Of a stretch of DNA of 37,174 nt, positions 8,254 to 29,100 are shown one piece after another. The stretch comes from a virus. The stretch is taken from positions 1-37,174 of IMG/VR virus record IMGVR_UViG_3300042294_002487. One strand, written 5' to 3'. The position numbers and the translations under genes are program-made. Each line of letters starts with the position of its first letter. Position 1 is the stretch's first letter. A model generated the notes under the pieces. That model had not been told where the DNA came from, did not search any database, and was given only the letters and a program-made list of their open reading frames with translations.

Positions 8254-9993
8254 TTATCCTGGGAAAGTAGCTCCTGTTGGTAAAATGTTGAAATCCAAGT
8301 AAATAAATTCTGCAGTTTTAGTAGGTTGAAGATAAATCTGACCAACTAATTGATTTCTATCAATTGTTTCTGCATTGTTATTTGAATCGTCCATAATTAC
8401 TTTAAAAGCATACAAACCTTGTTGTTGTTGTACTGATGCTAAGTATGGGTTAACTTGTGAAATAAAGCTTGTACGAGTAGCAATAGTATTTTGTTCGAAA
8501 GTTAATGTGTTAGCAATTTCACTAATTTTAGTTTTTAAAGCAATCAACAAACGACGAACATTTACACGATCTAAAGCACTTGCTTTTGTTTGTAATGTTT
8601 TCTGACCATATACTACAACTCCAGTTCCTGGGAATGTTGCTAATGGGTTTACTTTGTTTTGGTATAAAGTATCTCTGTTAGAATTTGTTAATTTTCTTTC
8701 GGCTCTAACAGCATTCAAAATACCACCTCTGTTTAAACCGGCAGGAGCAAACCAAGGAGCAGCAATATTATCGTTATTAACATAAACTGCTGGGATCATA
8801 GCTGAAGCTGGTACCCAAGTGAATTCACCTGTAATAGGATCTACTGTTTGTAACCAAGGCCAGTAAGTAGAAGCATATGATGTATCAAGTGTATTTGCAG
8901 TTCCAGTAACTGTGTTAATATCTTGACCATATCTTACCATATCAACTACTGCAATAGCATCACCTCTGTTTTGAGTATTGTTAATTAAAGTAGCTAATTG
9001 TGTTTTACTTGTAGCATTATCTTGATATGCTAAACCAGGAGCAACAATTACGTTATAAGCGTATTCGTCTTGGTTAGACATCAAACTAATTGCTGTATTA
9101 TAATCACTTGAATTTAAACCTTGAATATTAGCTGCAGAACAACTTTGATAGTAATTATTTATATTACCAATAAACAATGAACCTGAAGCGCCTCCAAATG
9201 ATCCACTAACGTTTGCAGGTAATGAAGCAGTGTATTGAGGTTTAAAGTTACCATTGTTATCAAAATAGTTTGGAGTTTTAAAGTTTACTGATTTAACAGT
9301 AATATAATTACTCTTATTAGGATAGTTACCGCTTGCTGTTACGAAAGTATTTGTACTATCACCTACTCCAAAAATTTGGTTACCAATTACTTTTTCAATA
9401 TAGTTTGGTTGAGTTGGGTCTAATGATAAGTTAGTCCAAGTTTCTAATACAATAGGAACGTTAGTATTATCATCTCCTCTTCTTACTAACAAGTTAAATG
9501 TACCAGAGGCAGTATTTGAGTTAACAATTTGCCATCTTAAGTTATTAGCTGAACCAGATTGTAAAGCACCTTGTGAATCTAATGAACTAGTACTGTTCAT
9601 GTTATCACCCCAGCTAAGAGTCTGTAATGTAAATGGAGATACTCCACTTGTAGGACCTGTTGCTGAACCTGTAATAATATAAGATGAGGTTGCAGGTAAG
9701 AAATCTGCTGAACCTGTTACTACTCTAGTTACCCATAAACTTGTACCACCGTTTTGGAAATAATTATAAGCGGCAGTTGAGGTAAAATATGTGTATTGAG
9801 TAGAACCACTAATAAAAGCACCACCAAAATAAGTTAAATATTGGTTAAAGCTAGTTATTAATCTAGGAACATTTGGTTGACCTTTTACAGTTGGACCAAT
9901 AAGAGCCGCACCAATAGGAGCAGGAGTATTGGTAATTTGTGAGGTATCGTTTTCTCTTGCTAATACGCCAGGAGATAAAAGTGTTTCTGCCAT
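8254..9993 (-). CDS. gp18: Contractile tail sheath protein (gp18-like)
   Basis: 579 residues, within the range of T4-like sheaths (T4 gp18 is about 659). The N-terminus LLSPGVLARENDTSQI, followed by a segment like GAALIGPTVKGQPNVPRLIT and a Phe-rich YLTYFGG, is the conserved start of phage sheath proteins. The C-terminal domain has VNRLLIALKT-type helices (near residue 475), FKVIMDDSNNNAETIDRNQ and a final QIYLQPTKTAEFIYLDFNI strand that forms the inter-subunit handshake. The insertion between them is Ser/Thr/Asn-rich and beta-like. Sheath subunits polymerise around the tube and contract to drive it through the host envelope. Next gene is the tail tube. Two ATATTTATA-like elements lie upstream. 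Confidence 0.93.
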   Translation of the reverse strand: MAETLLSPGVLARENDTSQITNTPAPIGAALIGPTVKGQPNVPRLITSFNQYLTYFGGAFISGSTQYTYFTSTAAYNYFQNGGTSLWVTRVVTGSADFLPATSSYIITGSATGPTSGVSPFTLQTLSWGDNMNSTSSLDSQGALQSGSANNLRWQIVNSNTASGTFNLLVRRGDDNTNVPIVLETWTNLSLDPTQPNYIEKVIGNQIFGVGDSTNTFVTASGNYPNKSNYITVKSVNFKTPNYFDNNGNFKPQYTASLPANVSGSFGGASGSLFIGNINNYYQSCSAANIQGLNSSDYNTAISLMSNQDEYAYNVIVAPGLAYQDNATSKTQLATLINNTQNRGDAIAVVDMVRYGQDINTVTGTANTLDTSYASTYWPWLQTVDPITGEFTWVPASAMIPAVYVNNDNIAAPWFAPAGLNRGGILNAVRAERKLTNSNRDTLYQNKVNPLATFPGTGVVVYGQKTLQTKASALDRVNVRRLLIALKTKISEIANTLTFEQNTIATRTSFISQVNPYLASVQQQQGLYAFKVIMDDSNNNAETIDRNQLVGQIYLQPTKTAEFIYLDFNILPTGATFPG

Positions 9994-10742: not shown

Positions 10743-11636
10743 TTATTTTCTTATCCATTTTTTTACTTCATTAAACACATGTTCTGGGGTTATTGAAGTA
10801 TGGCATTCAAATTGTCTATTAGTGTCTTTATGTTTAGGACACCAATACCAATCACTAACATCAAAATTATATTCTTTATCAATTAAATTCCAACACCCAT
10901 GACATACTGATTTATTTGTTATTCTAATATAATCAGGTAGTGATAAATCAAATTCATTCCAATCTTCAGTAAAATTAGCAATCATAGCTACTGGTTTTCC
11001 CATAGCATGAGCGATCCAAGACATACCTGAGGATAATCCGATATAAAACTCTGAATGGTAAATTAGGTTCATTGATTCTAAAAATGATTGTCCAAATTTT
11101 TTATTGGATTTACTTGGTAAACCATTTCGATAAGGAGCCCAACCAAACATTTCATTTTGTTCTACAACTACGGGTGTATAACCTTCTTTACGAAGCATTC
11201 CACACAATTCATTCCAATAAGGAGCTTCAGGTTGAATTCTTTTACCTTTAGGATGATTCCAATACTTTAATTGTGAAGTAGAATGAACGCCTATAGTAAT
11301 ATATTTATTTTTTATAGGACGTTCCATATTAGGAATTAATATATTAGGTCTAATATAAGGAGCATTTATAAATCCTAATTGTTCAGCATAACCTTGTTGA
11401 ATAGGTTTATTAAAATTATATTTTAAATCAATAATCTTATCAAAAATATAACCTGTGTTTTTTCCTATAAATTTTAAATTAGGATAAACAGTAGAAAAAT
11501 AAGGAATCATCCAATCATTAATACTAACAGAAATATCATCTGATGGATTAACTTCTTGAAATTTATTAACATAAGGAATAGATGCTACTGTATCTCCTAT
11601 TGAAAATGATTCTATAAAAACTAATACTTTTCTCAT
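10743..11636 (-). CDS. BAHT (TibC)-like O-glycosyltransferase
   Basis: 297 residues. The chain has a GT9/heptosyltransferase-type layout: an N-terminal FSIGDTVASIPYVNKF segment (residues 11-26), and a C-terminal nucleotide-sugar region with FYIGLSSGMSWIAHAMGKP (197-215). Directly after it is a four-cysteine finger, C245-x2-C248-x17-C266-x11-C278, with WYWCP and SITPEHV. This combination is the signature of bacterial autotransporter heptosyltransferases such as TibC, which bind iron through the finger and transfer heptose to serines of repetitive autotransporters. The N-terminal substrate domain of full-length BAHT enzymes is missing or reduced, and the chain is shorter than TibC. Its start overlaps the stop of the 762-residue gene by four bases, so the two are probably translated together and may act as a pair. 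Sugar donor and target are not visible. Confidence 0.72.
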   Translation of the reverse strand: MRKVLVFIESFSIGDTVASIPYVNKFQEVNPSDDISVSINDWMIPYFSTVYPNLKFIGKNTGYIFDKIIDLKYNFNKPIQQGYAEQLGFINAPYIRPNILIPNMERPIKNKYITIGVHSTSQLKYWNHPKGKRIQPEAPYWNELCGMLRKEGYTPVVVEQNEMFGWAPYRNGLPSKSNKKFGQSFLESMNLIYHSEFYIGLSSGMSWIAHAMGKPVAMIANFTEDWNEFDLSLPDYIRITNKSVCHGCWNLIDKEYNFDVSDWYWCPKHKDTNRQFECHTSITPEHVFNEVKKWIRK

Positions 11637-13921
11637 AATTTTAATTTACCAAATACCTGTAGCGGAGTTATTGATTTTTGACAAATATGTTGTTTTGGTG
11701 TTCCTTTATATACAGGACACCAATCCCAGTCTCCAGCATCAAAAGCAAACACTTCATCATTCCAACAAGATATACAAACATTTTCATTGTAGATTTTAGT
11801 TATATTAGAAGTAAATTCATGGTTTGGTTTTGAAAATCCATTAATCATATATGTGTGTTTACCTAAAGCCCAATTAAACCAAGATAAACCTGAACCCAAT
11901 CCAATAAATGCTTCAGCATGATATAAATAGTTTGCTACTATTCCTAAAGATTCACCCCATATGTTTTTTGTTCCTTCTATATGATAAGGAGTTTTTGTTA
12001 ATATTACAATATCATATCCTATCTTTTTTATTAATTTAGATAATTCTATCCAATGATTATAGTCCCACTCTTTACATCCTGATGTTGCTGTAGGAGCAAA
12101 AACTATATATTTGTTATCTGTAGGTTGTTTAAGTTTAGAAAATGTTAATCCATGATTTAATTCTTTAAATTCTAAACCTAAAATATCAGTTGCGGTTTGT
12201 TGTAATGGAATTAAATTTATTTGATTAGGATACATATCAAATTTATCCCATTTGCCTGATTCACCTCTAAACCACCCTATTCTATATACTACATAACAAT
12301 CAGTAATTAATCCTGGTTCGATAAATTCTATATCTTTGTATATTTCTAATCCATTAAACCATCCATTATAAAAAGTACTTAAAACAACTTTACAATTATG
12401 TTTTTTAGCAAATTCTACAGCATATGAAGCCCAAGCAATAGTATCACCAATTGCTTTTGATTCTAAACAAATTAATACACGTTTATTATCTAAATTTAAA
12501 GTATCAACAATAACTCCATTAATTCTAATTTTCCATTTAGTATAATACTTTCTAGAACATGAAGTCCACATATTATTACTAATGGTATCACTATAAATTA
12601 CTTTACCTTTTTCATCTAAAAATTCTACAAAATATTTTTGAATTTTTCCTCCAATAATTTCTACTTTTGGTCCCTCTGTGTAACTTATTTTAATTTCATT
12701 TTCAGGGAGTTGTTTTTTGTATTCATTAGAATTCATTTTTTTATAAAAATTTATTATTGTTTCATATCCAATAGCTCCAACTTTTTCCCAACTAAAATTA
12801 TTACGAATTTCTTTTGATTCTTCTAATGCTTTAATTTTAATTTGTTCATAAAATTCGTAAGTAAATCTCATTTTTTTACCTAAATCTTTAAAATCAGGCT
12901 CATAATAATTTCCATCATATCCATTAAAATGATTATATGATGAATCATTTGCTGATTTTTCGCCAATAATATTTACAGGAATACCTCTACCCTCAGCAAA
13001 TTCTAATTGGCCTGAGCAGTTTGAATAAATTGATGGCGTTCCACAAGCCATTGCCTCGATTAAAGGTAAATTCCAACCTTCTGATCTGGCACAAGATAAA
13101 AATACATTACTAGATCTTAGTAATTTAATATAATCTTCTCTATTTGGAAAATGAACTACTTTAATTCGTTCATCTTCTAATCCATAATGTTTTAATCTAT
13201 TTTCTGTTGTTTCTAAATTATCACCTGAAAATGGGTTATCAATAGAGACAATTAAATCAACTGGTTCATTTTTATCAAAAGTTTTAAGGAATGTTTCAAT
13301 AATTTCTTTAGTTGATTTTCTATAATCCCATCTACCTGCTAAAAAGAATTTAAATCTACCATCAGACGTTAATTCATGAATTTCTTCTTTAGGATAAAAG
13401 GTATGAACATCAACACCTTCAGGAACAACTTTAATTTTATCTTTAGGATAACCTTGAGCAATAGTACAATCACGTTGCCATTTTGATGGAACCCATAATT
13501 CATCAAATTCTTTTAATTTGTTAAAAAAGTCTTTTGGTTGGTGGGTTGTTTCCCAAACATTATATGCTATTTTAGGTCCATTATAACCATCATAAAATAA
13601 ATGATGATTAGTTTCACATAAAACTATATTTAAGTCTGGTGTGAATTCTTTGGATGGTGATGAATATATTTTATAGTTGTCTCTCTTATTTTCACTATTC
13701 CAAAGTATTTGTTCATATAAAATATTTTTATCAATCTCATTAATATAAGATTCTTTATCATGAGGAGTTTCATTATATCCATCCCATGTTTTACCTACTG
13801 TAAAATTTCTAATTTTTAATTGTAAATGTTTTGATAATTCCCTAAAAAAATCTCTAGTATGTTGATTATAACCAGTATTTCCTATATAAGAACCATGAAC
13901 ATATATTTTTGGTTTATTCAT
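11633..13921 (-). CDS. Two-domain glycosyltransferase: GT4 fused to BAHT/TibC-like O-glycosyltransferase
   Basis: 762 residues, two enzymes in one chain. Residues 1-400 are a GT4 glycosyltransferase: SYIGNTGYNQHTRDFF near the start, FFLAGRWDYRKS at 202-213, and the donor-site motif E281-x7-E289 in SEGWNLPLIEAMACGTPSI. Residues 415-475 form a beta-rich linker domain (VEFLDEKGKVIYSDTI, then NNMW). Residues 480-762 are GT9/BAHT-like: SKAIGDTIAWASYAVEF, FIGLGSGLSWFNWALGK (672-688), and a cysteine finger C716-x2-C719-x15-C735-x11-C747 followed by SITPLQVF. The BAHT half should put the first sugar on Ser/Thr, and the GT4 half could extend it; that division of labour is inference. Start overlaps the preceding gene by eight bases. 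The linker domain resembles the N-terminal domain of two methyltransferases in this cassette. Confidence 0.75.
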   Translation of the reverse strand: MNKPKIYVHGSYIGNTGYNQHTRDFFRELSKHLQLKIRNFTVGKTWDGYNETPHDKESYINEIDKNILYEQILWNSENKRDNYKIYSSPSKEFTPDLNIVLCETNHHLFYDGYNGPKIAYNVWETTHQPKDFFNKLKEFDELWVPSKWQRDCTIAQGYPKDKIKVVPEGVDVHTFYPKEEIHELTSDGRFKFFLAGRWDYRKSTKEIIETFLKTFDKNEPVDLIVSIDNPFSGDNLETTENRLKHYGLEDERIKVVHFPNREDYIKLLRSSNVFLSCARSEGWNLPLIEAMACGTPSIYSNCSGQLEFAEGRGIPVNIIGEKSANDSSYNHFNGYDGNYYEPDFKDLGKKMRFTYEFYEQIKIKALEESKEIRNNFSWEKVGAIGYETIINFYKKMNSNEYKKQLPENEIKISYTEGPKVEIIGGKIQKYFVEFLDEKGKVIYSDTISNNMWTSCSRKYYTKWKIRINGVIVDTLNLDNKRVLICLESKAIGDTIAWASYAVEFAKKHNCKVVLSTFYNGWFNGLEIYKDIEFIEPGLITDCYVVYRIGWFRGESGKWDKFDMYPNQINLIPLQQTATDILGLEFKELNHGLTFSKLKQPTDNKYIVFAPTATSGCKEWDYNHWIELSKLIKKIGYDIVILTKTPYHIEGTKNIWGESLGIVANYLYHAEAFIGLGSGLSWFNWALGKHTYMINGFSKPNHEFTSNITKIYNENVCISCWNDEVFAFDAGDWDWCPVYKGTPKQHICQKSITPLQVFGKLKL

Positions 13922-14861
13922 ATTGTAATTTATTTTTTAAAATATATTCTTTTTTATTAATAATATTAAAATCGTAATCTTTTATAATTTTATCATTTAA
14001 TATAAGTTTTATATTGTTAATATTTTCTATTTTTCCTAAAGACTTAGTTATATATGTTTCTTTTTGTTTATTAAACATATTTTCAATGTGAGAATTATTA
14101 ACAATAGCATAAATATTATTATCATTCCCTGTTTTATTATAATTAAAAAGTATAAATTCGTTATTTATGTCATCATAAACTACTACAACCCAATCAGATT
14201 CATCTGCTGAATATCGGGAAACATTAATTTTTTCTTGAAGAGATAAAAGACTTTTTTCAAAAGTATTATTTTCTTGTTTTATTAAAGAATAATTAAAATA
14301 TTCATAAGTTTTTATTTCAGAAGTATTTAAAAAAGAATAAAAAGATTTATTAGAAGTATCAAACCAATCTTGATTTATTTTATCTAAATTAAATGACATT
14401 CCTGAAAATGATATTAAATCCGGATGTCTATACCAAATAATAGAATGTGAATCTAATAATATTGAATTTTCAATAAGTTCACTATCATCTGAAAATATTG
14501 TGTCATAATCAAACCAATGAACTTTAGTATAACCAAAATTTTTAGCTGATGATAATCCATTAATAGTAAGAGAACCAGCAGCAATCATATGATTGTAGTC
14601 TTTATATTCAGTAGTATAAATTTTAAAAGCATTACATGAAAACCAAAATGATAACTTATATTTAGGATCAAATAATAAAGTATTATTTTTATCATAAATA
14701 AAATAATTACAATATTCTAAAGCTTCTTCAGGTATAGAACTATGAGAAGAAACCATAATATCAAATTTATTCTTATCTATAGACTTTAATGCGTCTAATA
14801 AGATATTTTTTCTTTTTAAATCAGGAGTATAGGTTGTAAGTAAAATTAAATCTTTTTTCAT
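13914..14861 (-). CDS. Putative GT-A glycosyltransferase, paralogue 2
   Basis: 315 residues, rich in Asn, Ile and Lys. It is a paralogue of the 333-residue gene of this cassette: both begin with a basic MK followed by a hydrophobic strand and a (Y)-x-P-D-x-(K/E)-R-K segment, then share (D)-(I)-(M/L)-(V/I)-S-S-H, a YF-x-YDK-(N/D) phrase, TINGL-x-x-AKN-(F/L)-GY, and HW-(F/I)-DYD (H115-D120 here). The early Rossmann-like strand and a DYD triad at about residue 118-120 fit a GT-A fold with a metal-binding DxD. I know no named family for it, and no activity should be assumed. It ends eight bases inside the next start and begins one base from the end of the GT9-like gene, inside the glycosylation cassette. 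Confidence 0.6.
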   Translation of the reverse strand: MKKDLILLTTYTPDLKRKNILLDALKSIDKNKFDIMVSSHSSIPEEALEYCNYFIYDKNNTLLFDPKYKLSFWFSCNAFKIYTTEYKDYNHMIAAGSLTINGLSSAKNFGYTKVHWFDYDTIFSDDSELIENSILLDSHSIIWYRHPDLISFSGMSFNLDKINQDWFDTSNKSFYSFLNTSEIKTYEYFNYSLIKQENNTFEKSLLSLQEKINVSRYSADESDWVVVVYDDINNEFILFNYNKTGNDNNIYAIVNNSHIENMFNKQKETYITKSLGKIENINNIKLILNDKIIKDYDFNIINKKEYILKNKLQYE

Positions 14862-14862
14862 A

Positions 14863-15696
14863 TTAATATTGAATATTTAAATAATTTTCTTTCCAATAAG
14901 GATAAATTTTACCTTTAAAAGCATCTAATAAAGTTTGAAATGAAAACTCAGGTATTAATTCTGTTTGTCCATTTCTATTTAAATGAGTGTTTTGTGGGTA
15001 TAACCATTCTGAATTAGGTAATTCGCATTCTTTTATTTTAGGTAAATAAATTAATTGGTTTGGATCATTTATAATAATAATAGACTTTAAGTCTAAAGCA
15101 GCTGCTATATGCATAGGGCCACTATCTATACCTAAAAAATATTCACAAGTTTCCATCACCTCTATTATTTCATTTATTGTTAAATCATTATTATAGTAAT
15201 ACGGAATAAAATTTGTATTAGAAAGAAAAAAATCTTGTATTATTTGTATTTGTTCTGTATCTAAACTATTAGGTATAACACGTTTCCAATCTGTATTGTT
15301 TTGTAAATTTATAAAAACTTTATTTTTAATTTTTAAAGCAGGATTATAATTAATTTTTCCTTTTGGTTTAATTTCTATTGGTAATCCTAATGATTTTTGA
15401 AATCTTTGAATAGCATGACCTCCACCCCAATCATTTTGAGCAATTTCTGTTATACAAAAATCAATATCATTAGTTAAATTTTCTTTATTAATGTATTTTT
15501 CACTTATTTCATTTAACAATGTATTATTTACTTTTAAATAAGGAAAAAGTGAAGTTAATATAATAGCATCACCTAATCCCTCAGCATTATTATATACTGA
15601 GGGGGGTGGTGTTAAAATATTAGTTGTAATTTTGTAAGTAGTATGGTTCTGATAAAATTCTTTTAAAATAGATTCTATTTCATTAAATTCTTTCAT
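14863..15696 (-). CDS. GT9-like (heptosyltransferase-superfamily) protein
   Basis: 277 residues. An N-terminal GLGDAIILTSLFPYL (residues 40-54) matches the glycine-rich loop of the GT9 heptosyltransferase superfamily (G-x-G/D-x-(I/V)-x-x-(T/S)). A C-terminal CEYFLGIDSGPMHIAAAL matches the family's G-x-D-(S/T)-G-(P)-x-H-(I/L)-A-A donor-site motif. No cysteine finger is present, so it differs from the two BAHT-like proteins and is closer to ordinary LPS heptosyltransferases or to sugar-polymer GT-B enzymes. It begins within the last 14 bases of the preceding methyltransferase gene. A plausible role is extending a glycan begun by the BAHT-like enzymes; donor and acceptor unknown. Confidence 0.65.
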   Translation of the reverse strand: MKEFNEIESILKEFYQNHTTYKITTNILTPPPSVYNNAEGLGDAIILTSLFPYLKVNNTLLNEISEKYINKENLTNDIDFCITEIAQNDWGGGHAIQRFQKSLGLPIEIKPKGKINYNPALKIKNKVFINLQNNTDWKRVIPNSLDTEQIQIIQDFFLSNTNFIPYYYNNDLTINEIIEVMETCEYFLGIDSGPMHIAAALDLKSIIIINDPNQLIYLPKIKECELPNSEWLYPQNTHLNRNGQTELIPEFSFQTLLDAFKGKIYPYWKENYLNIQY

Positions 15697-16399
15697 AACC
15701 TAAAATATAACTATGATGATGTCCTAAATTTAATAACTCATCATTGCGTTTCCAACCACTACAAAGTAAAAAACAATCAATTAATGTACCTTTACCTAAA
15801 ACACGGTGTGGTCCTACATCATATCTTGTTTTATCTATAACATCTCCATTATTATCTATAGTCCACCATTCAATCCATCCTCCTGGTAAAAAGTTATCAT
15901 CAACAGCTAAGTATACATTTTGACTTAAACGATTATAAACAGCATCTAATTCTCTATAATGATGTAATTGACTTGGAATTGGATCTGGTACTGAAAGATC
16001 ATAAGAATCAAAATAAATAAAATCTATTTTTTGAACTTCTTCATCACTTAATGATTTAAGATAAGTAACAGAGTCTGAAATTACATATTCAATAGCATCA
16101 GAAAATTCTTTAGTAGATTCTTTACAGCTATTTATATTTTTTTCTGAGATATCTATAGTAATAAGTTTTCCACCTGTGTGATTTTTAATTAAATCTCCAA
16201 AAACATAAGTAAAAGCTCCCATATTTCCTTCTAAACTAGACCACATAGTTCCAGTTTCAACTACAGTAATAGGACGATTCAAATTAACTAATTTTTCAAT
16301 TACATACTTGTAATAGTTTAGTCTAGCAGGGCCTGATTTTTCTAAAAATTCTTTGTATGGGGCAAAAAATTCTTCTAAATTAAATGGTTTATTGTTCAT
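15683..16399 (-). CDS. Class I SAM-dependent methyltransferase
   Basis: 238 residues. SAM-binding motif I is visible as TVVETGTMWSS (residues 45-55; an E/T variant of the usual E-x-G-x-G), and the ribose-binding acidic strand as LITIDISEKNI (79-89). The motif IDFIYFDSYDLS further on fits the post-strand-4 region of small class I enzymes. The later VYLAVDDNFLPGGW, with Asp-Asp, resembles the metal/product site of Methyltransf_24-type sugar methyltransferases. It sits in the middle of the glycosyltransferase cassette and overlaps both neighbours (4 and 14 bases). It probably methylates a sugar hydroxyl on the glycan made by the cassette; the target is inferred only from context. Confidence 0.7.
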   Translation of the reverse strand: MNNKPFNLEEFFAPYKEFLEKSGPARLNYYKYVIEKLVNLNRPITVVETGTMWSSLEGNMGAFTYVFGDLIKNHTGGKLITIDISEKNINSCKESTKEFSDAIEYVISDSVTYLKSLSDEEVQKIDFIYFDSYDLSVPDPIPSQLHHYRELDAVYNRLSQNVYLAVDDNFLPGGWIEWWTIDNNGDVIDKTRYDVGPHRVLGKGTLIDCFLLCSGWKRNDELLNLGHHHSYILGYERI

Positions 16400-17343
16400 A
16401 TTTTGTTCTGTTTATAAGCATATATTATTCCTAATTCATCGTTAATTTGATAATCTCCGTATTCAAAATTAACTACAAAATTACATTTTTTTAATTTATC
16501 TAAAATAGTATTTATTTTACCATCTTTATTGAAGTGATATTCTAAACATATTTTATCAATATTATTAGTTAAATATTGTTCATTTAAACTTTCAATAATT
16601 TCATATTCGGCACCCTCACAATCTATTTTAAGATAATCAATTTTATTTATATTATTTATTTTTATATAGTTGTTAATATTAATAGACTTACAAGTAATAG
16701 TTTGACTGTTTTTATTACTATTAAACATAGAAGAATTAATTGAACTTTCAGGATCAATGTTAAAGGTTACTTCACCATCTTTAGCTCCTACTGCTGCTTC
16801 TTCAACTGTTAAATTAGAAATATTAAAATTTTCAATTATACAATTATAACATTGAGGTGAAGGTTCAAAACAATAAACATGTTTAGCTCCTTTACATATT
16901 GAGTAATATGAAAACAGGCCTAAATTTCCTCCAATATCTACTACAACATCTCCTTCATTTACTTCAAAAAACTTATCATATATTTTTGTAACAAATATTT
17001 CATATAGTGAAAGAGCAGGATCTTTATCTTGAGGATTATTGTATTTATAATCTTTTAACACATTGTATTTATCTAGACTTTTTATATTTACCGATTCACC
17101 TAAAACAGAATCTATTTTTAAATACATTGTTTTTAACGTATTATCCCATATTTCAAATCTTCTGTGGTATACTTCTACAGGATGAAAAAAGTAATAAATA
17201 ATATTAGGTTCAACATACATTTTTTCTTGATAAGAACAAAGTCCTGTATATCCATCTATTATTTTAATAATAATATTTTGAGGTTCTAAAGAACTAAATT
17301 GAATTCCTTTTTGATTTTCTATAAATTCTTTAAATATTATCAT
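16396..17343 (-). CDS. FkbM-family methyltransferase with N-terminal beta domain
   Basis: 315 residues. The C-terminal two thirds is an FkbM-type SAM methyltransferase: GDVVVDIGGNLGLFS (residues 131-145, motif I), VYCFEPSPQCYNCI (acidic end of strand 2), EAAVGAKDGEVTF, and DYLKIDCEGAEYEII (the FkbM signature DxEG). FkbM enzymes O-methylate sugars and other small hydroxyls. The first 80 residues are separate: VKIIDG-like strands with TGLCSYQEKM and YHRRFEIWD, which I read as a small beta-sandwich-like domain related to the linker of the 762-residue protein and the N-terminus of the 278-residue protein. Four-base overlaps on both sides. Confidence 0.78.
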   Translation of the reverse strand: MIIFKEFIENQKGIQFSSLEPQNIIIKIIDGYTGLCSYQEKMYVEPNIIYYFFHPVEVYHRRFEIWDNTLKTMYLKIDSVLGESVNIKSLDKYNVLKDYKYNNPQDKDPALSLYEIFVTKIYDKFFEVNEGDVVVDIGGNLGLFSYYSICKGAKHVYCFEPSPQCYNCIIENFNISNLTVEEAAVGAKDGEVTFNIDPESSINSSMFNSNKNSQTITCKSININNYIKINNINKIDYLKIDCEGAEYEIIESLNEQYLTNNIDKICLEYHFNKDGKINTILDKLKKCNFVVNFEYGDYQINDELGIIYAYKQNKI

Positions 17344-18341
17344 TTATATTGAGTTTGGTTATTACGTTTAAATTTTTCTTTTAATTCTGGAGTTGAAATG
17401 TTAATGTGTTGTTTTAATTTATTATTTACTATAGTTAATATTTCATTAATATTATTTATATCATCCCCATCAGCCATTTTCCATTCAAATTTATTTACAT
17501 TATTTATTGTAACTAATCTGTTTTGATTTATTATAAAACTAACATTAATAGGATCATCTTTTTTAGAATTCCAAGCAATAAAATTTATTTTACCTGTTTT
17601 AGTATCATAAAAAGGAACAGTCCAATCATCTAAATCATGCATTTGTGTGAAACCAGATAAATTAAATATATTTCCTTTTTCTTGAATTTCATCAAAATTT
17701 TTATAATAAATTTTTTCACCATCTAATTCATATATTATATTATTTATAGCTTCATTAGTTTTATGTGAACTTTCTTTTAATATTTTTAATAATTCTTCTC
17801 TATTATATTTAATAAATAAATTATTAATTTTATCTAAATTATAACCTTGAAAAACTCCTTGTCCCCATTGTAAATTAGATTCAAAAAGTCTATTAGGTTT
17901 TATATATTGAACATTAACATATTCATTTAACAATTTATCATTTTCATAAAAATCACTGTAATCAACAAAAAAAGAATCATAATCTATCCAATGAGCGGTT
18001 TTATATCCTAAATTTTTAGCACAACCTAATCCATTAATTGTTGTTTTATAGGCAGCTAAATAAACACTATAGTTAGAAATTAAAGAAGAAACTATATTTA
18101 AATTTTCATAAGGTGAAAACCAAGGAGTATTCATTAAATCCCAATCAGTTATAAGTTCATTATCCTTATCATAAAAATAATAATCAACTTTATCTATAAT
18201 ATATTCAGGAACATGAACATGACTTGAAATTAAAATATCAAAATCTTTTCGAATTGGTTGTAAAGAATTAACACAATTTTCTAAAAGTTGTTTTCTTTCA
18301 GTATCTGGACAATATGCTCCTATAACAATTATTGATTTCAT
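17340..18341 (-). CDS. Putative GT-A glycosyltransferase, paralogue 1
   Basis: 333 residues, a paralogue of the 315-residue gene at 13914. Shared landmarks are the N-terminal IIVIGAYCPDTERKQLL strand and helix, FDILISSHVHVPE, VDYYFYDKDN, TINGLGCAKNLGY and HWIDYDSFF, with the triad D120-Y121-D122. The layout (strand-helix first half, DYD about residue 120, mixed alpha/beta then a beta tail) is that expected of a GT-A glycosyltransferase, but I know no exact family. The C-terminal 100 residues carry KFEWKMADGDDINNI and differ from the paralogue. It leads the tight part of the cassette: an ATATTTATA element lies 13 bases upstream, and its stop overlaps the FkbM start. Confidence 0.6.
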   Translation of the reverse strand: MKSIIVIGAYCPDTERKQLLENCVNSLQPIRKDFDILISSHVHVPEYIIDKVDYYFYDKDNELITDWDLMNTPWFSPYENLNIVSSLISNYSVYLAAYKTTINGLGCAKNLGYKTAHWIDYDSFFVDYSDFYENDKLLNEYVNVQYIKPNRLFESNLQWGQGVFQGYNLDKINNLFIKYNREELLKILKESSHKTNEAINNIIYELDGEKIYYKNFDEIQEKGNIFNLSGFTQMHDLDDWTVPFYDTKTGKINFIAWNSKKDDPINVSFIINQNRLVTINNVNKFEWKMADGDDINNINEILTIVNNKLKQHINISTPELKEKFKRNNQTQYK

Positions 18342-18364: not shown

Positions 18365-19201
18365 TTAATTTTTTATAGCAATAGTATTTCCGTTACATTC
18401 TATTGTTTCGTAAAAATTTTCTATAAACCATAAATTAAGTTTAGCATTCATAATCTGATCTAAATTCATACTTTCATAAATAATAACATTAGGTTTATGT
18501 TCTAGTGCTAAAATTAAATCACCATCAATACCTTCAACATCTAAATGTAACCAATCATAATTTTTATCTTTCATTAAATCATTAATTGATATACTTTTTC
18601 TATAACTTTTTACAATTTCTGAAGAGTCTAACCAACTACTTATAACTGAGGGGACAATAGTATCTGTATAACCTTCTCCTCCTTGATACCATTCAACATC
18701 AGAACCATCTGTAGTTACAATAGTATTTAATGTTCCTACATTATAATTGTTTTTGTAATTTTCAATTAAATCAATAAATTGTTTATCACTACCGTCTACT
18801 AAAGTAGCATCTGTTAAATTATGTTTTACCGGATAAATCCAATGTCCGTTTCTTCCATCATGTGAACCAATTACTAATCCATTAGATTTTAATCCTTGAA
18901 TTTTTCTAGATTTAAGGTAAAACCATAACATTTTTTCAATTTCATCACCATGAATTGTTACATCCCATTTATATTCGTACAATAAAGTTCCCTTTGATGA
19001 ATAAAATAAAACATCAGTAATTAATTCAGAACCACACCATTCAGCCCAATAATAATCATTTAATTCGGCTTCATAATGAATTTCATTAGTAATAATGTTT
19101 TTAAATTGTACTTTTAAAGGTAAATGTTCTTTAACAACATCAAGTTTACTTACTTCAACTTTAGTTTTATTTTGATTTCGATCGTAAATTATATTTATCA
19201 T
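18365..19201 (-). CDS. FkbM-like methyltransferase with N-terminal beta domain
   Basis: 278 residues. Residues about 28-80 form an N-terminal beta-rich domain (KVQFKNIITNEIHYEAEL, then YWAEWC and LFYSSKGTLLYEYKWD). It is followed by a SAM methyltransferase: NGLVIGSHDGRNGHW (107-121), ATLVDGSDKQ and DWLHLDVEGIDGDLI, the FkbM-type DxEG motif. The N-terminal domain resembles residues 415-475 of the 762-residue protein (VEF-x-DEKGKVIYSDTI and NNMW). The gene is separated by 23 bases from the next. No strong ATATTTATA element precedes it. A sugar O-methyltransferase working on the fibre glycan is the likely role, by context. Confidence 0.7.
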   Translation of the reverse strand: MINIIYDRNQNKTKVEVSKLDVVKEHLPLKVQFKNIITNEIHYEAELNDYYWAEWCGSELITDVLFYSSKGTLLYEYKWDVTIHGDEIEKMLWFYLKSRKIQGLKSNGLVIGSHDGRNGHWIYPVKHNLTDATLVDGSDKQFIDLIENYKNNYNVGTLNTIVTTDGSDVEWYQGGEGYTDTIVPSVISSWLDSSEIVKSYRKSISINDLMKDKNYDWLHLDVEGIDGDLILALEHKPNVIIYESMNLDQIMNAKLNLWFIENFYETIECNGNTIAIKN

Positions 19202-19467: not shown

Positions 19468-20181
19468 TCAATAAATAGTTAAATCAAAATAAAAGCCAGC
19501 TACAGTTCCTCCATAACTAGCAGCCATTACTACTGAACCCCAAGTATTAAAATCAAATGAAGTTGAAGCAGGACCAGCATTTACTGCTTGACCCGTAAAT
19601 ATAGAAGTACCATTAACTGTTAAATCTGCAGTAGCGCCTGGGAAGTTTAGGTTTGCTCCTATAGTAATTGTCCAATATGCTGTACGAATTAAAGGGGATG
19701 ATGGAGAACTAGCATCTATAGAAACGGGAGAACCTCCATCACCTGCAGATATAACAGCTCCCGTACCTGCAACAATATAAGAATATGTGTTAGAACTATC
19801 TCTTAGTGTTAAGTTAACATCTTGAACAGTATTATCAATTGGAGGAGGAGGAAAAAATGTACTTGGTCCTAAGTTATTATTAACATTTAATATACATGCA
19901 TAACTACTCTGATCATAAAAATAAACTTTACTAGCAAAGTTATTAAATGAATAATTAGAAGAAATAGCATTCAAATTATATATTCTATTAGCACCACTTG
20001 TATTTCCGTTTTGACCCCATCCATTATAAGAATTAGTAGAATTTCCATTAGGACCTTCAAAATAACTATCTCCAGCTACAGTTTCAAAGGGAATAGAGTA
20101 ACCAGGATTACCACTACCCCCTCCAAACTGAGCTTCCCAATATATATTACTTAATCCTATATTTGTACTTGGAACAGCCAT
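19468..20181 (-). CDS. Fibre-associated virion protein
   Basis: 237 residues, start MAVPSTNIGLSNIYWEAQFG. N-termini of this kind (a PS-x-x-(I/L)-x-(L/M)-S-(D/N)-I pattern followed by Gly/Asn-rich and Tyr-rich sequence) are frequent in phage appendage proteins of uncultured marine phages. The middle has YNGWGQNGN, then PPPPI near residue 115, and a C-terminal beta-rich, Ala/Ser/Gly-rich part ending FYFDLTIY that could be a receptor-binding or jelly-roll domain. The start overlaps the stop of the giant fibre gene by one base (TAATG), so they are translationally coupled. Likely part of the same appendage or its tip; not proven. Confidence 0.6.
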   Translation of the reverse strand: MAVPSTNIGLSNIYWEAQFGGGSGNPGYSIPFETVAGDSYFEGPNGNSTNSYNGWGQNGNTSGANRIYNLNAISSNYSFNNFASKVYFYDQSSYACILNVNNNLGPSTFFPPPPIDNTVQDVNLTLRDSSNTYSYIVAGTGAVISAGDGGSPVSIDASSPSSPLIRTAYWTITIGANLNFPGATADLTVNGTSIFTGQAVNAGPASTSFDFNTWGSVVMAASYGGTVAGFYFDLTIY

Positions 20182-23100
20182 TATTTATTTTTAAGATAAT
20201 TTATTTGGTTTTGTAAATCTTCTACTTTTGTTGTTAATTCTTTAACGGCCTCGATTAATATAGCTGTCAATTTCTCGTATTTAACCGCCTTATATCCATT
20301 ATCACGAGTTGTTACTAATTCTGGGAATATCTGTTCAACTTGTTGAGCTATGACGCCTATATCATGTCCTTCATTTTCATGAATTCCAACCATTGGTATC
20401 CAATCAAACTCATATCCACCTAATTGGTTTACTTTATATAAAGCTCCTTCAATTAATACTTTATTAGCTTTTAATCTTTCGTCTGAAGAATAGAATGCTA
20501 TTACGTCATTAGTTGCTCTGATTAAACCAGTAGTTGTTGGTGTATTTGTACCTACACCTAAGGCACCATTTACATATAATGTTGTACCATCAAATTGTAA
20601 ATTAGCTTCACCGTTGATTGTACCAGCATTACCTGTAGCTGTTAATACGTAATTGTTTGTATTATTATTAATAGTAGCTGTACCTGAAGTACCTGATGAA
20701 CCACTAGTTCCAGATGAACCATTAGCACCAGCTGCTCCTGAAGTACCAGATGAACCTGAACTACCGCTTGTTCCGCTTGAACCTGGAGCACCAGCAGCAC
20801 CAGAAGTACCACTTGAACCTGAAGTTCCTGATGAACCTGGAGCACCGGCTGCGCCGCTAGTTCCAGATGAACCATTAGCACCTGCGGCACCTGAAGTTCC
20901 TGATGAACCTGAAGTACCATTTACACCTGATATACCTGAAGTTCCTGATGAACCTGGAGCACCAGCAGCACCTGAAGTACCAGATGAACCACTTGTTCCG
21001 CTTGAACCAGATGTACCAGAACTTCCGCTTGAACCTGATGTACCAGATGAACCAGATGTACCAGATGAACCTGGAGCACCAGCAGCACCTGAAGTACCTG
21101 ATGAACCAGATGTACCACTTGAACCTGAAGTACCTGATGAACCTGAACTACCACTAGTTCCTGATGAACCTGGAGCACCGGCAGCACCTGATGTACCACT
21201 TGATCCACTAGTTCCTGATGAACCTGATGTTCCAGATGAACCACTTGATCCACTAGTTCCTGAAGAACCTGGAGCACCTGCTGCACCAGAAGTACCTGAT
21301 GAACCTGAAGTTCCTGAACTACCAGAAGTACCAGAACTACCAGATGAACCGCTTGTTCCTGAACTTCCTGAAGTACCGTTAACACCACTTATACCTGAAG
21401 TTCCGCTTGAACCACTAGTACCACTTGAACCTGATGTTCCAGATGAACCACTTGAACCTGATGTTCCTGAAGAACCACTAGTTCCGCTTGAACCTGAAGA
21501 GCCACTAGTTCCTGATGAACCTGAAGTACCGCTTGAACCTGATGTTCCTGAAGAACCTGGAGCACCGGATACACCAGAAGTACCTGATGAACCTGAAGTT
21601 CCTGAAGAACCTGAACTACCACTTGTTCCGCTTGAACCAGATGTTCCTGAACTACCACTTGTTCCGCTTGTACCTGATGAACCTGATGAACCTGAGGTTC
21701 CACTTGAACCTGAAGAACCGCTAGTTCCGCTTGAACCAGATGTTCCTGAAGTACCTGAAGCTCCACTAGCACCTGAAGTACCAGAACTACCACTAGTTCC
21801 TGAAGATCCACTTGAACCAGATGTTCCTGATGAACCTGAAGAACCACTAGTACCAGAAGAACCTGAAGTTCCTGAAGTACCACTTGAACCTGAAGTACCT
21901 GAAGATCCGCTTGAACCTGATGTTCCGCTTGAACCTGGAGCACCTGCTACACCTGATGTACCAGATGAACCTGATGTTCCTGATGAACCTGAAGTTCCAC
22001 TTGAGCCAGATGAACCACTTGTTCCACTTGAACCACTTGAACCTGAAGTACCGCTTGAACCTGAAGTACCATTTACACCTGAAATACCACTTGTTCCGCT
22101 TGAACCAGATGTTCCTGATGAACCTGATGTTCCTGAACTACCTGAAGAACCTGATGTTCCTGAACTACCTGAAGTTCCTGAAGAACCTGATGTTCCTGAT
22201 GAACCTGAAGTTCCACTTGAGCCAGATGAACCACTTGTTCCTGAACTTCCAGATGAACCAGAAGTACCACTTGAACCACTTGTTCCGCTTGTACCTGATG
22301 AACCTGAAGTTCCGCTTGAACCACTAGTACCACTTGAACCTGAAGAACCGCTTGTTCCACTTGAACCTGAAGAACCGCTAGTTCCTGAAGAACCGCTAGT
22401 TCCTGATGAACCTGAAGTTCCACTAGTACCGCTTGAACCTGAGCTACCTGATGTTCCTGAAGAACCCGAACTACCACTAGTTCCTGAAGAACCAGATGTA
22501 CCAGAACTACCAGATGAACCTGAAGTTCCTGAACTACCTGAACTACCGCTAGTACCAGATGAACCTGATGTTCCACTTGAACCAGAAGTACCTGATGTAC
22601 CGCTGCTTCCTGAAGAACCAGAAGTACCAGATGAACCACTTGAACCTGATGTACCAGAAGAACCACTAGTTCCAGATGTACCTGAAGAACCAGATGTACC
22701 TGAAGAACCAGATGTACCTGAAGAACCTGAGGAACCACTTGTTCCTGAAGAACCACTTGTTCCTGATGAACCTGAAGTTCCTGAAGAACCTGAACTACCT
22801 GAAGTACCAGATGAACCTGAACTACCACTAGTTCCTGATGAACCTGAGGTTCCATTAACACCACTTATACCTGAAGTACCTGATGAACCTGAAGATCCGC
22901 TTGAACCTGAAGTACCACTTGAACCAGAAGTACCTGATGAACCACTTGTTCCTGAAGAACCGCTAGTGCCTGAAGATCCAGATGAACCTGAAGTTCCACT
23001 TGAACCAGAGCTGCCTGATGTTCCTGATGAACCAGATGTACCAGAGCTACCGCTTGAACCTGAAGTACCAGATGAACCTGATGAACCTGAAGTACCACTA

Positions 23101-26100
23101 GTACCTGAAGCTCCACTAAATCCACTTGTTCCACTTGAACCTGATGTTCCTGATGAACCTGAAGAACCTGATGTTCCTGATGAACCTGAAGATCCGCTAG
23201 TTCCGGAACTACCACTAGTTCCTGATGAACCGCTAGTTCCACTTGAACCTGAAGAACCACTAGTACCTGATGAACCTGAAGATCCTGAGGTACCAGATGA
23301 ACCGCTTGTTCCGCTTGAACCGGATGAACCGCTAGTTCCTGAAGAACCACTTGAACCTGAAGTTCCACTTGAACCTGAAGTTCCACTTGAACCGCTTGTT
23401 CCTGAAGAACCTGAACTACCTGAAGTACCAGATGAGCCAGATGAACCTGAAGTTCCGCTTGATCCAGATGTACCATTTACACCTGATATACCACTAGTTC
23501 CTGATGAACCAGATGAACCTGAAGTGCCTGAACTACCACTTGAACCACTAGTTCCGCTTGAACCTGAAGTTCCACTTGAACCAGATGTTCCTGAAGAACC
23601 ACTTGATCCAGATGTTCCTGAAGAACCACTAGAACCACTAGTTCCAGATGAACCAGAAGTACCTGAAGAACCTGAGCTTCCGCTTGTTCCTGATGAACCA
23701 GAACTTCCACTAGAACCAGATGTTCCTGAACTACCAGATGAACCAGATGTTCCACTTGAACCAGAAGTACCTGATGAACCACTAGAACCTGAAGTTCCGC
23801 TTGAACCTGAAGAACCACTTGTTCCAGAAGAACCGCTTGTACCTGATGAACCACTTGTTCCACTTGAACCTGAACTACCTGATGTTCCTGAAGAACCACT
23901 TGAACCAGATGAACCTGATGTGCCTGAAGAACCTGAGGTTCCGTTAACACCACTTATACCTGAAGTACCTGAGCTGCCACTTGAACCGCTAGTACCTGAT
24001 GAACCTGATGAACCACTAGTACCTGATGAACCGCTAGTACCTGAACTTCCACTAGTACCACTTGATCCAGATGAACCAGAAGTACCTGATGAACCAGAAC
24101 TTCCTGATGTTCCAGATGAACCAGAAGTACCTGATGAACCTGATGAACCTGAAGTACCTGAAGAACCGCTTGAACCACTTGTACCTGATGAACCACTTGA
24201 ACCTGATGTTCCTGATGAACCTGAGCTTCCGCTTGTTCCGCTTGAACCCGAAGTACCTGAACTACCAGATGTTCCTGATGAACCAGAGGTACCACTTGAA
24301 CCTGATGAACCAGATGTGCCTGAAGAACCAGAAGAACCTGAACTACCGCTTGTACCTGAGCTGCCACTAGAACCACTTGTTCCTGACGAACCACTAGTAC
24401 CAGAAGAACCTGATGAACCAGAGGTACCGCTTGAACCTGATGAACCTGATGTTCCAGATGAACCTGAAGTTCCTGAGTTACCAGATGTTCCTGATGAACC
24501 AGATGAACCACTAGTTCCTGAAGAACCTGAGCTTCCACTAGTTCCTGAAGAACCAGAAGTACCATTTACTCCGCTTATACCTGATGTGCCACTTGATCCA
24601 GATGAACCAGAAGTACCTGATGAACCTGAAGAGCCACTAGTACCTGAGCTGCCAGATGTTCCTGATGAACCTGAGCTACCTGAGGTACCAGATGAACCTG
24701 ATGAACCTGAAGTTCCTGAGCTACCAGATGTTCCTGATGAACCACTAGTACCAGAAGAACCTGAACTACCGCTTGTACCTGAACTACCTGAGCTGCCGCT
24801 AGTTCCGCTTGAACCACTAGTACCTGATGAACCTGAAGAGCCACTTGAACCCGATGTTCCTGAAGAACCTGAAGAACCACTAGTTCCACTTGAACCGCTA
24901 GTACCAGATGAACCTGAAGTACCAGATGAACCACTTGTTCCTGATGAACCTGAAGAACCACTAGTACCAGATGAACCAGATGAACCACTTGTTCCTGATG
25001 AACCACTTGAACCTGAAGTACCGGAACTACCAGATGTACCATTTACACCTGAAATACCAGATGTACCTGAAGAGCCTGAACTACCACTAGTACCAGATGA
25101 TCCTGAACTACCTGAAGTTCCACTTGAACCTGATGTACCACTACTACCAGATGTTCCTGATGAACCTGAGCTTCCGCTTGTTCCTGAAGAGCCTGAACTA
25201 CCACTAGTACCAGATGAACCTGAGGTACCACTAGAACCACTAGTACCAGAAGAACCACTTGTTCCTGAACTACCAGATGAACCTGAAGTTCCTGATGAAC
25301 CTGAAGAACCTGATGTTCCAGATGAACCTGAAGTTCCTGATGAACCTGAACTACCACTAGTTCCGCTTGAACCACTTGATCCTGAAGTACCAGAAGATCC
25401 GCTAGTTCCTGATGAACCTGATGTACCAGAACTACCAGATGAACCAGAAGTACCTGAACTACCTGATGAACCAGAAGTACCAGAAGAACCAGATGTACCG
25501 CTTGAACCACTAGTTCCAGAAGAACCACTAGTACCAGATGAACCTGAACTTCCACTTGTGCCTGAGCTTCCGCTTGAACCTGATGTTCCACTTGAACCTG
25601 ATGTTCCTGAAGAACCTGAACTACCGCTAGTTCCTGATGAACCGCTTGAGCCAGATGTGCCATTAACACCACTTATACCTGAAGTACCTGAGCTGCCACT
25701 TGAACCACTAGTACCTGAACTACCGCTTGAACCTGAAGTTCCGCTTGAACCTGAGGTACCTGAGCTACCAGATGAACCAGATGTACCTGAAGAGCCACTA
25801 GAACCTGAAGTACCAGATGAACCACTAGTTCCAGATGAACCTGAGCTACCGCTAGTTCCGCTTGAACCTGAGCTACCGCTAGTTCCGCTTGAACCACTAG
25901 TACCAGATGAACCTGAGGTTCCGCTTGAACCAGAAGAACCTGAAGTTCCGCTTGAACCTGATGAACCAGAAGTACCTGAAGAACCACTAGTTCCACTTGA
26001 ACCAGAGGTTCCAGAACTACCTGATGAGCCAGAAGTACCAGATGAACCTGATAATCCACTTGTTCCTGAGCTACCACTTGTACCTGAAGAACCACTTGAA

Positions 26101-29100
26101 CCCGATGTGCCTGAAGAACCTGAGGTTCCATTAACACCGCTTATACCTGATGTTCCTGAAGAACCACTAGATCCACTAGTTCCAGAAGAACCTGATGAAC
26201 CTGATGTGCCTGAAGAACCTGATGTACCTGAAGAGCCAGAACTACCTGAAGTTCCGCTTGAACCTGATGAACCAGAAGTACCACTAGATCCACTAGTTCC
26301 TGATGAACCACTTGAACCAGAAGTTCCTGATGAACCACTTGAACCAGAAGTACCAGATGAACCAGATGTACCTGAAGAGCCACTAAAACCTGAAGTACCT
26401 GAACTTCCTGAACTACCTGATGTTCCTGATGAACCTGAAGTACCAGATGAACCTGAACTTCCGCTTGTACCACTAGATCCTGATGAACCAGAGGTTCCAG
26501 ATGAACCTGATGTTCCTGAACTACCTGAGCTACCACTAGTTCCTGATGAACCACTTGAGCCAGATGAACCTGAAGTACCACTTGAACCTGAAGAACCTGA
26601 AGTTCCTGATGAACCACTTGTTCCTGAAGAACCACTAGTACCTGAAGAACCAGATGAACCACTAGTTCCAGATGAACCTGATGAACCTGAGGTTCCACTA
26701 GAACCTGATGAACCTGATGAACCTGAAGTACCACTAGATCCTGAAGTTCCATTAACACCGCTTATACCTGATGTTCCTGAAGAACCACTAGATCCACTAG
26801 TTCCTGAAGAACCTGATGAACCACTTGTTCCACTAGATCCAGATGAACCTGATGTACCTGAACTACCTGATGTTCCTGAACTACCGCTTGAACCTGAAGT
26901 TCCTGAAGAACCAGAACTACCTGATGTTCCACTAGAACCTGAAGTACCGCTTGAACCTGAAGTACCAGATGAGCCACTTGTTCCTGATGAACCACTTGAA
27001 CCTGATGTACCACTAGATCCGCTTGAACCTGATGTACCACTAGTTCCTGAACTACCTGATGTTCCACTAGATCCACTTGTTCCAGATGAACCAGATGTTC
27101 CTGAACTACCGCTTGAACCTGATGTTCCAGATGAACCTGAAGAGCCTGAAGTACCAGATGAACCACTAGTTCCAGAAGAACCAGAACTTCCACTTGTTCC
27201 TGATGAACCTGATGTTCCATTTACTCCAGAAATACCACTTGTTCCGCTAGATCCGCTTGAACCTGAAGTTCCTGATGAACCTGAACTTCCTGATGTACCT
27301 GAAGAACCGCTTAAACCTGATGTTCCTGAGCTACCGCTTGTTCCTGATGATCCTGAACTACCTGATGTACCTGAAGATCCTGATGAACCGCTAGTTCCTG
27401 ATGAACCACTTGTTCCACTTGAACCTGATGTTCCAGATGAACCTGAAGAACCGCTTGTTCCAGATGAACCACTTGAACCTGATGTTCCTGAAGAACCACT
27501 ACTACCTGATGTTCCACTGCTTCCTGATGTTCCTGAAGAACCAGATGAGCCTGATGTTCCTGAAGAACCACTTGTTCCTGATGAACCTGATGTACCACTT
27601 GAACCTGATGAACCACTTGTTCCATTTGAACCTGAGCTACCGCTTGTTCCAGAAGAACCTGATGTACCATTAACACCGCTTATACCTGATGTACCTGAGC
27701 TGCCGCTTGAGCCGCTTGTACCTGATGAACCACTACTACCTGATGTACCTGAAGAACCACTTAATCCAGATGTACCACTTGAACCAGAAGTTCCACTAGA
27801 TCCTGAAGTTCCTGAAGAACCTGAGGTTCCAGAACTGCCTGATGAACCACTAGTTCCACTAGATCCACTACTTCCTGAAGTTCCAGATGATCCAGATGTA
27901 CCTGAGCTTCCGCTGGTGCCTGATGAACCACTTGAACCTGATGTTCCAGATGAACCGCTTGAACCAGATGTACCTGAGCTGCCTGATGTACCACTTGAAC
28001 CACTTGTTCCTGATGAACCAGATGAACCACTAGTACCAGAAGAACCGCTTGAACCACTAGTTCCTGACGAGCCTGAGCTGCCTGATGTTCCACTTGAACC
28101 ACTTGATCCAGATGTTCCTGAAGAACCAGATGAACCACTAGTTCCTGATGAACCGCTTGTTCCTGAGCTGCCTGATGTTCCACTACTACCACTAGTTCCT
28201 GATGAACCACTTGAACCACTAGTTCCGCTAGATCCAGATGAACCTGAAGAACCACTTGAACCTGATGAACCAGAAGTTCCGCTTGAACCGCTAGTTCCAT
28301 TAACTCCGCTTATACCTGATGTACCTGAAGATCCTGAAGATCCTGATGTACCTGAACTACCTGATGAACCAGAGGTACCTGATGAACCACTAGTTCCAGA
28401 GCTACCTGAATTACCTGATGTTCCTGATGAACCACTTGAACCGGATGTACCAGAAGAACCTGATGAACCTGATGTTCCACTACTTCCAGAAGTACCAGAT
28501 GAACCTGATGTTCCACTAGAACCACTTGAACCTGAAGTTCCTGAAGATCCTGAAGAACCACTAGTTCCTGATGAACCAGAAGTACCACTACTTCCCGAAG
28601 AGCCAGAAGTACCAGAACTACCAGAACTACCAGATGTTCCTGATGAACCTGAAGTTCCTGATGAACCTGATGTTCCTGATGAACCACTAGTTCCACTTGA
28701 ACCACTTGAACCAGAAGTACCGGATGAACCTGATGTACCACTACTTCCTGAAGATCCTGATGTACCTGATGAACCTGATGAACCTGAAGTTCCGCTTGAA
28801 CCTGAAGTTCCTGATGAACCACTTAAACCAGATGTTCCAGAAGATCCGCTTGAACCTGATGAACCACTAGTTCCAGATGAACCTGAAGAACCGCTAGTTC
28901 CTGATGAACCCGATGTACCATTAACACCGCTTATACCACTAGTACCACTTGAACCTGATGATCCTGAAGTACCAGATGAACCTGAAGAACCACTAGTTCC
29001 TGATGAACCAGAAGTACCAGATGAACCACTTGAACCACTAGTTCCTGAAGAACCTGAACTTCCGCTTGTTCCTGATGAACCAGAAGTACCTGATGAACCA

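Follow-up and report, generated by a model that had tools for sequence, protein, structure and literature searches.

A GT4-BAHT glycosyltransferase fusion encoded beside tail genes in environmental phages, with a serine-rich repeat fibre as candidate substrate

Introduction

BAHT enzymes have so far been known for their part in maturing the surface adhesins of bacteria, and characterized members O-heptosylate protein passenger domains (PMC4358343; PMC8498110). TibC and Aah (family TIGR04414; PDB 4rap and 4rb4) combine a β-barrel with a GT-B catalytic domain. Mutation of D110, K230, or W305 in TibC abolishes or largely diminishes activity, and the β-barrel is likewise required (PMC4358343). R286 of TibC hydrogen-bonds the adenine of ADP-heptose, P300 sets heptose stereoselectivity, and a β-hairpin thumb bearing F265-V266 is needed for the active dodecamer; without thumb contacts the enzyme is an inactive dimer.

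Viruses provide precedents of a different kind. A bifunctional mimivirus enzyme modifies viral collagen (Luther 2011, cited in PMC8968730); as described in that citing account, it resembles the system considered here in being virus encoded, bifunctional, and directed at the virus's own collagen-like protein, but it combines lysyl hydroxylation with glycosylation, rather than Ser O-glycosylation by two glycosyltransferases, and belongs to a giant virus of eukaryotes. Glycans have also been described on mycobacteriophage virions (Freeman 2023, as summarised in PMC12619734) and linked to phage-encoded glycosyltransferases (PMC11256854). These are phages of bacteria with glycans on virion proteins, but the sites lie at capsid and tail-tube C-termini, and the accessible text of these sources contains neither a BAHT domain nor a fused starter and extender. 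For pelagimyophages, the glycosyltransferases of the host-recognition cluster were proposed to modify the host surface (PMC7029224).

Here we analyze a 37,174-nucleotide stretch of viral DNA (the window; IMG/VR record IMGVR_UViG_3300042294_002487) that encodes a BAHT-like domain fused to a GT4 glycosyltransferase. An earlier note on this DNA had proposed the fusion and knew of no described phage example. Our search of the open-access literature yielded no description of a phage BAHT or of a GT4 joined to one, but undescribed cases abound in metagenomes.

Results

One phage protein joins a GT4 domain to a BAHT-like domain

The fusion protein, P0001, is the product of one uninterrupted minus-strand gene of 762 codons. 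Its features are as follows:

11633..13921, minus strand: GT4-BAHT fusion enzyme (P0001), 762 aa, ATG start at 13921
12734..13921, minus strand: GT4 (GT-B fold) domain, residues 1-396; PF00534 6e-15, fold match 3oy2_A
13055..13081, minus strand: E281-x7-E289 motif of the GT4 domain, EGWNLPLIE; invariant in 82 sequences
12497..12703, minus strand: TibC-type N-terminal β-barrel, residues 407-475; phmmer alignment to TibC starts at 407, strands seen in the model
11636..12487, minus strand: BAHT-like catalytic domain, residues 479-762; TIGR04414 206 bits, fold match 4rap_D
12443..12445, minus strand: D493, equivalent to the TibC catalytic base D110; invariant in 82
12071..12073, minus strand: K617, equivalent to TibC K230, a donor phosphate contact; invariant in 82
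11681..11776, minus strand: four-cysteine finger C716, C719, C735, C747, equivalent to Cys339/342/358/370 of the TibC iron finger; invariant in 82

Family models place both halves. Residues 407-760 score 206.1 bits against NCBIfam TIGR04414 (hepto_Aah_TibC), above its cut-off of 200, and the best sequence match of this half is TibC (PDB 4rap, E 2e-36). GT4 models of Pfam recognise the N-terminal half (PF00534, 55.6 bits). The C-x2-C-x15-C-x11-C pattern at residues 716-747 appears in none of 20,000 shuffled versions of the protein. Structure prediction, which the earlier note had named as a check and, should the C-terminal half lack the BAHT fold, as a refutation, bears out this division: the AlphaFold2 model, for which 52 sequences were used, reaches a mean pLDDT of 90.2 and shows the BAHT fold in the C-terminal half, β-barrel included. 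In fold searches with whole models as queries, residues 407-762 align with TibC 4rap_D (21-387) at Z 34.0 (rmsd 2.4, 342 aligned), and the GT4 half aligns with 3oy2_A at Z 34.2 (rmsd 2.9, 350 aligned) and with MshA at Z 31.7. With a pTM of 0.63, the model does not reliably show how the two domains are placed relative to each other. Both motifs that the earlier note had read on one chain are exact.

The GT4 half shares the GT-B fold and E-x7-E motif with retaining GT4 enzymes (MshA, BshA, Chlorella virus 3oy2, and PglA), but it is only about 13-17% identical to its best-matching solved structures and is fused to a probable protein glycosyltransferase. We discarded a role as a GT4-conflict (defence) protein, PF20706 scoring only 29.4 bits versus 55.6 for PF00534 in a neighbourhood of tail genes. 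An assembly or frame artefact is ruled out by 82 homologous open frames.

Catalytic residues are invariant while TibC-specific features are replaced

We aligned P0001 with its viral relatives (82 sequences including the window protein, about 52 once near-copies are removed). E281, E289, D493, T613, K617, W681, and the four cysteines of the finger do not vary; D493 aligns with TibC D110, and T613, K617, and W681 align with the TibC donor-site residues T226, K230, and W305. Because catalytic residues, finger cysteines, and GT4 glutamates are all retained, both halves look active from their sequences. TIGR04414 matches all 52 of 52 representative relatives at E <= 1e-5.

P0001 thus shares with TibC and Aah the β-barrel, the GT-B catalytic domain, the finger spacing, and the equivalents of four key residues. 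Unlike them it is fused to GT4, encoded by a phage, and without an autotransporter partner, and its thumb and donor-site residues differ. The position of TibC R286 is V662 in P0001 and V, T, I, L, or S across all 82 sequences; that of P300 is G or S in the same set; and the thumb region has 27 residues versus 37 in TibC, with no equivalent of F265-V266. Other phage BAHTs keep the Arg in some cases and a longer thumb in several, so these losses are specific to some clades. Although the family and fold matches are clear, P0001 lacks the two features associated with ADP specificity and with assembly of the dodecamer, and it is therefore a divergent BAHT homologue joined to GT4 and not a canonical BAHT. 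Judging from these residues, neither "heptose" nor "dodecamer" can be carried over from TibC, since the adenine-contacting Arg and the dodecamer thumb are absent, and any sugar assigned to P0001 would be provisional. The GT4 and BAHT assignments of the earlier interpretation hold, whereas TibC's properties do not transfer wholesale.

A phage-encoded ADP-heptose pathway is unsupported as well. Across 32 carrier contigs, TIGR02199 (rfaE domain II) and PF13580 (SIS_2, GmhA fold) gave one match over cut-off each, alongside weak nucleotidyltransferase matches, and heptose-pathway families are not consistently present. Separately, two BAHT domains (L214:1426-3750 and L085:997-3345) have the catalytic residues and lack the four finger cysteines.

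BAHT-type domains co-occur with a serine-rich repeat fibre

The window also encodes a very long fibre:

20181..33704, minus strand: fibre, 4507 aa, proposed substrate; 1406 G-X-Y triplets and a C-terminal Peptidase_S74 chaperone

In the triplet array, Ser or Thr occupies position X in 92% of cases and Ser occupies position Y in 96%; proline occurs 8 times, and Lys and Arg are absent. Folded as a collagen-type helix, the 1406 uninterrupted triplets would extend about 1.2 micrometres. Antisense to the fibre runs a 4242-aa open frame (20653-33381, plus strand), most likely a by-product of the repeat codon pattern.

We compared 50 contigs chosen by GSS/GTS repeat DNA alone, longer contigs being preferred, with 50 controls chosen by a random 14-mer. 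A BAHT-type domain occurs in 26 of the 50 repeat contigs and in none of the controls (p 2e-10; this and the other p-values given here are guides only, because every co-occurrence sample contains shared ancestry). As the repeat set was longer than the random set, we repeated the comparison among contigs of similar size, where the domain is present in 7/26 repeat and 0/35 random contigs (p 0.0015). The reverse test found the repeat in 20 of 50 fusion contigs versus 1 of 50 random ones; fusion contigs of at least 30 kb carry it in 10 of 13 cases, and the 30/50 that lack it are mostly short fragments.

On balance, we favor the reading that P0001 is a bifunctional enzyme that O-glycosylates the Ser/Thr-rich, collagen-like fibre of its own phage, the BAHT-like half acting first and the GT4 half extending. 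The C-terminal half would transfer a first sugar onto Ser (or Thr) hydroxyls of the GSS/GTS repeats, the N-terminal half would add a second, and products of neighbouring genes (GT-A, GT9, and methyltransferase) may add further groups or cap the glycan. Covalent fusion would keep both active sites on a single substrate that offers more than 2,600 potential sites. TibC and Aah, which act on protein (PMC4358343; PMC8498110), set a precedent for protein O-glycosylation, though the candidate substrate of P0001, itself Ser-rich, is much larger. That a starter might be fused to an extender on a long repetitive substrate, as the earlier note suggested, is plausible, and it gains indirect support from the finding that BAHT domains, mostly fused to GT4, co-occur with GSS/GTS fibres and adjoin the sheath gene. 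On the other side, co-occurrence is no proof of a substrate, the replacement of the adenine-contacting Arg counts against the reading, and, by analogy with the inactive dimer formed by TibC without its thumb contacts, the missing thumb of P0001 may tell against activity.

The GT4-BAHT pairing recurs across phages

A scan of IMG/VR returned 158 viral-contig relatives, and in all 80 of the 80 loci kept GT4 and BAHT lie in a single open frame. A cultivated isolate, Microcystis phage Mel-JY01, encodes a longer version of the fusion with an inserted module, adjoining a (G-T/S-S)n protein. The seven matches on bacterial or archaeal genome contigs all come from metagenome-assembled genomes, and for none is a chromosomal location clear: Ser repeats lie near L084 and L088, and the neighbour of L087 is of the intein/LAGLIDADG kind.

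The 26 BAHT carriers among the GSS/GTS-repeat contigs give a sample drawn on the repeat alone, and in 20 of them a GT4 lies directly N-terminal in the same frame. Two GT4 groups, one mostly without blastp-detectable similarity to the GT4 of the window, are interleaved on the BAHT tree, where well-supported branches force 3 and 6 label changes. The frequency of fusion and this interleaving together indicate that the pairing recurs.

Recurrence bears on the strongest alternative, in which two independent enzymes were fused merely for co-expression or localisation and each half starts its own glycan at different sites. Related phages do encode BAHT-type proteins without GT4, and in the window a second BAHT copy adjoins the fusion:

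10743..11636, minus strand: standalone BAHT-type protein without β-barrel (P0003), 297 aa; TIGR04414 193.8 bits, just under the cut-off; aligns with TibC 97-385

Its type forms a separate clade (100/100) on the BAHT tree and adjoins the fusion in several relatives; the gene is absent from the earlier note. Such an arrangement is what separately acting halves might look like, but the immediate N-terminal position of GT4 in those 20 of 26 cases, with two types of GT4, speaks against it, and we give independent action roughly one chance in four.

The fusion lies in a tail module beside other candidate glycan-modifying genes

At 80 of 91 fusion loci, the fusion is followed on its own strand by a tail-sheath gene, with a median gap of 316 bp; in 72 of these the sheath gene is no more than 3 kb away. 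The window follows this arrangement, with a Ser-rich gene between P0003 and the sheath:

8254..9993, minus strand: tail sheath protein, virion-module marker; PF04984 and PF17482
10110-10721, between P0003 and sheath: Ser-rich protein (P0009), with Ser-rich stretches

The fusion, closest to the sheath, could have another tail or baseplate protein as its main target, for example the product of 10110-10721 with its Ser-rich stretches, in which case the link to the fibre would reflect no more than a shared host-recognition cluster. Some neighbouring fibres are in fact Pro-rich with little Ser: fibres with GPIGPxG collagen repeats adjoin the fusion in some contigs. These repeats show a weaker link (7/50 contigs from about three lineages). 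Ser repeats occur as well in the three lineages of this kind that were checked, so we set the Pro-rich repeats aside as the driver of the association. The Ser-repeat association, in contrast, persists within one sheath lineage: among relatives of the window's sheath, 8 of the 15 contigs with a BAHT domain carry the repeat, as against 0 of the 17 without one (p 0.0006, or 0.006 after rough collapse of near-copies). A main target other than the fibre therefore seems unlikely, at about one chance in six.

Upstream of the fusion lie further candidate modifying enzymes:

13914..14861, minus strand: putative GT-A glycosyltransferase (P0004), paralogue of P0006 (31% identity)
14863..15696, minus strand: GT9-like protein (P0005); PF01075 3e-7
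15683..16399, minus strand: putative methyltransferase (P0010); weak PF13578, phrog_24975 1e-23 (family of unknown function)
16396..17343, minus strand: FkbM-family methyltransferase (P0011); TIGR01444 7e-31
17340..18341, minus strand: GT-A fold glycosyltransferase (P0006); AlphaFold2 pLDDT 88.5, GT-A enzymes at Z about 14 over residues 1-235
18365..19201, minus strand: possible FkbM-like methyltransferase (P0007), by eye only, with no family match

The order of transcription is fibre, unknown protein, P0007, P0006, P0011, P0010, P0005, P0004, fusion, P0003, Ser-rich protein, and sheath, and the stop codon of P0004 overlaps the start codon of the fusion. In other phages, relatives of P0004 and P0006 form part of GT4-BAHT proteins, which ties these two to the same process as the fusion.

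An enzyme set of this kind could instead remodel host lipopolysaccharide or exopolysaccharide during infection, for instance to block superinfection. Enzymes of the GT4 and GT9-like types typically serve the synthesis of surface glycans, and a gene cluster of this type was interpreted in this way in the pelagimyophages (PMC7029224). We consider this improbable, somewhat more so than another virion target: BAHT family enzymes act on protein, the fusion adjoins a late tail sheath gene, and scanning of the window proteins revealed no recognisable gene for a lipid carrier, flippase, or polymerase. Protection of the phage genome by DNA hypermodification is very improbable, for although phage glycosyltransferases often modify DNA, a point also made in PMC12619734, the fusion has a BAHT fold with TibC-type residues, lies in a tail module, and has no recognised base-modification gene among the scanned window proteins.

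Implications for the proposed fibre glycosylation and wider domain architectures

Because the pairing of fusion and fibre recurs across many environmental phages, tailed phages that carry the fusion and a Ser-rich fibre probably glycosylate their own fibres. That many phages carry a BAHT domain, usually fused to GT4, beside tail genes suggests that aquatic phages commonly add sugars to tail fibres of their own, and P0001 and its fibre form a concrete enzyme-substrate pair to test. If true, the glycosyltransferases of phage host-recognition clusters, so far explained as modifying lipopolysaccharide, would gain a second possible explanation. More speculatively, aquatic phages may possess a widespread system whose starter, derived from BAHT and in most cases fused to a swappable GT4 and sometimes to GT-A, methyltransferase, or deacetylase domains, glycosylates very long, nearly proline-free (G-S/T-S)n fibres, using a donor other than ADP-heptose, with the glycan stabilising a collagen-like helix free of hydroxyproline; we hold this broader proposal as tentative, with the odds clearly against it.

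Larger fusions are found in several phages:

L481:2910-6611: FkbM-GT4-BAHT, 1234 aa
L482:1199-5572: FkbM-GT32-GT4-BAHT, 1458 aa
L470:1575-6155: GT25-GT4-BAHT-FkbM, 1527 aa

In two others (L069:10001-13720 and L078:9992-13720; about 1240 aa), GT4-BAHT is followed by a GT-A-like stretch, identified by eye, and then a PIG-L deacetylase. In a further GT4-BAHT gene (L476:676-4812), an intein-like insert, also recognised by eye, splits the E-x7-E motif within the GT4 half.
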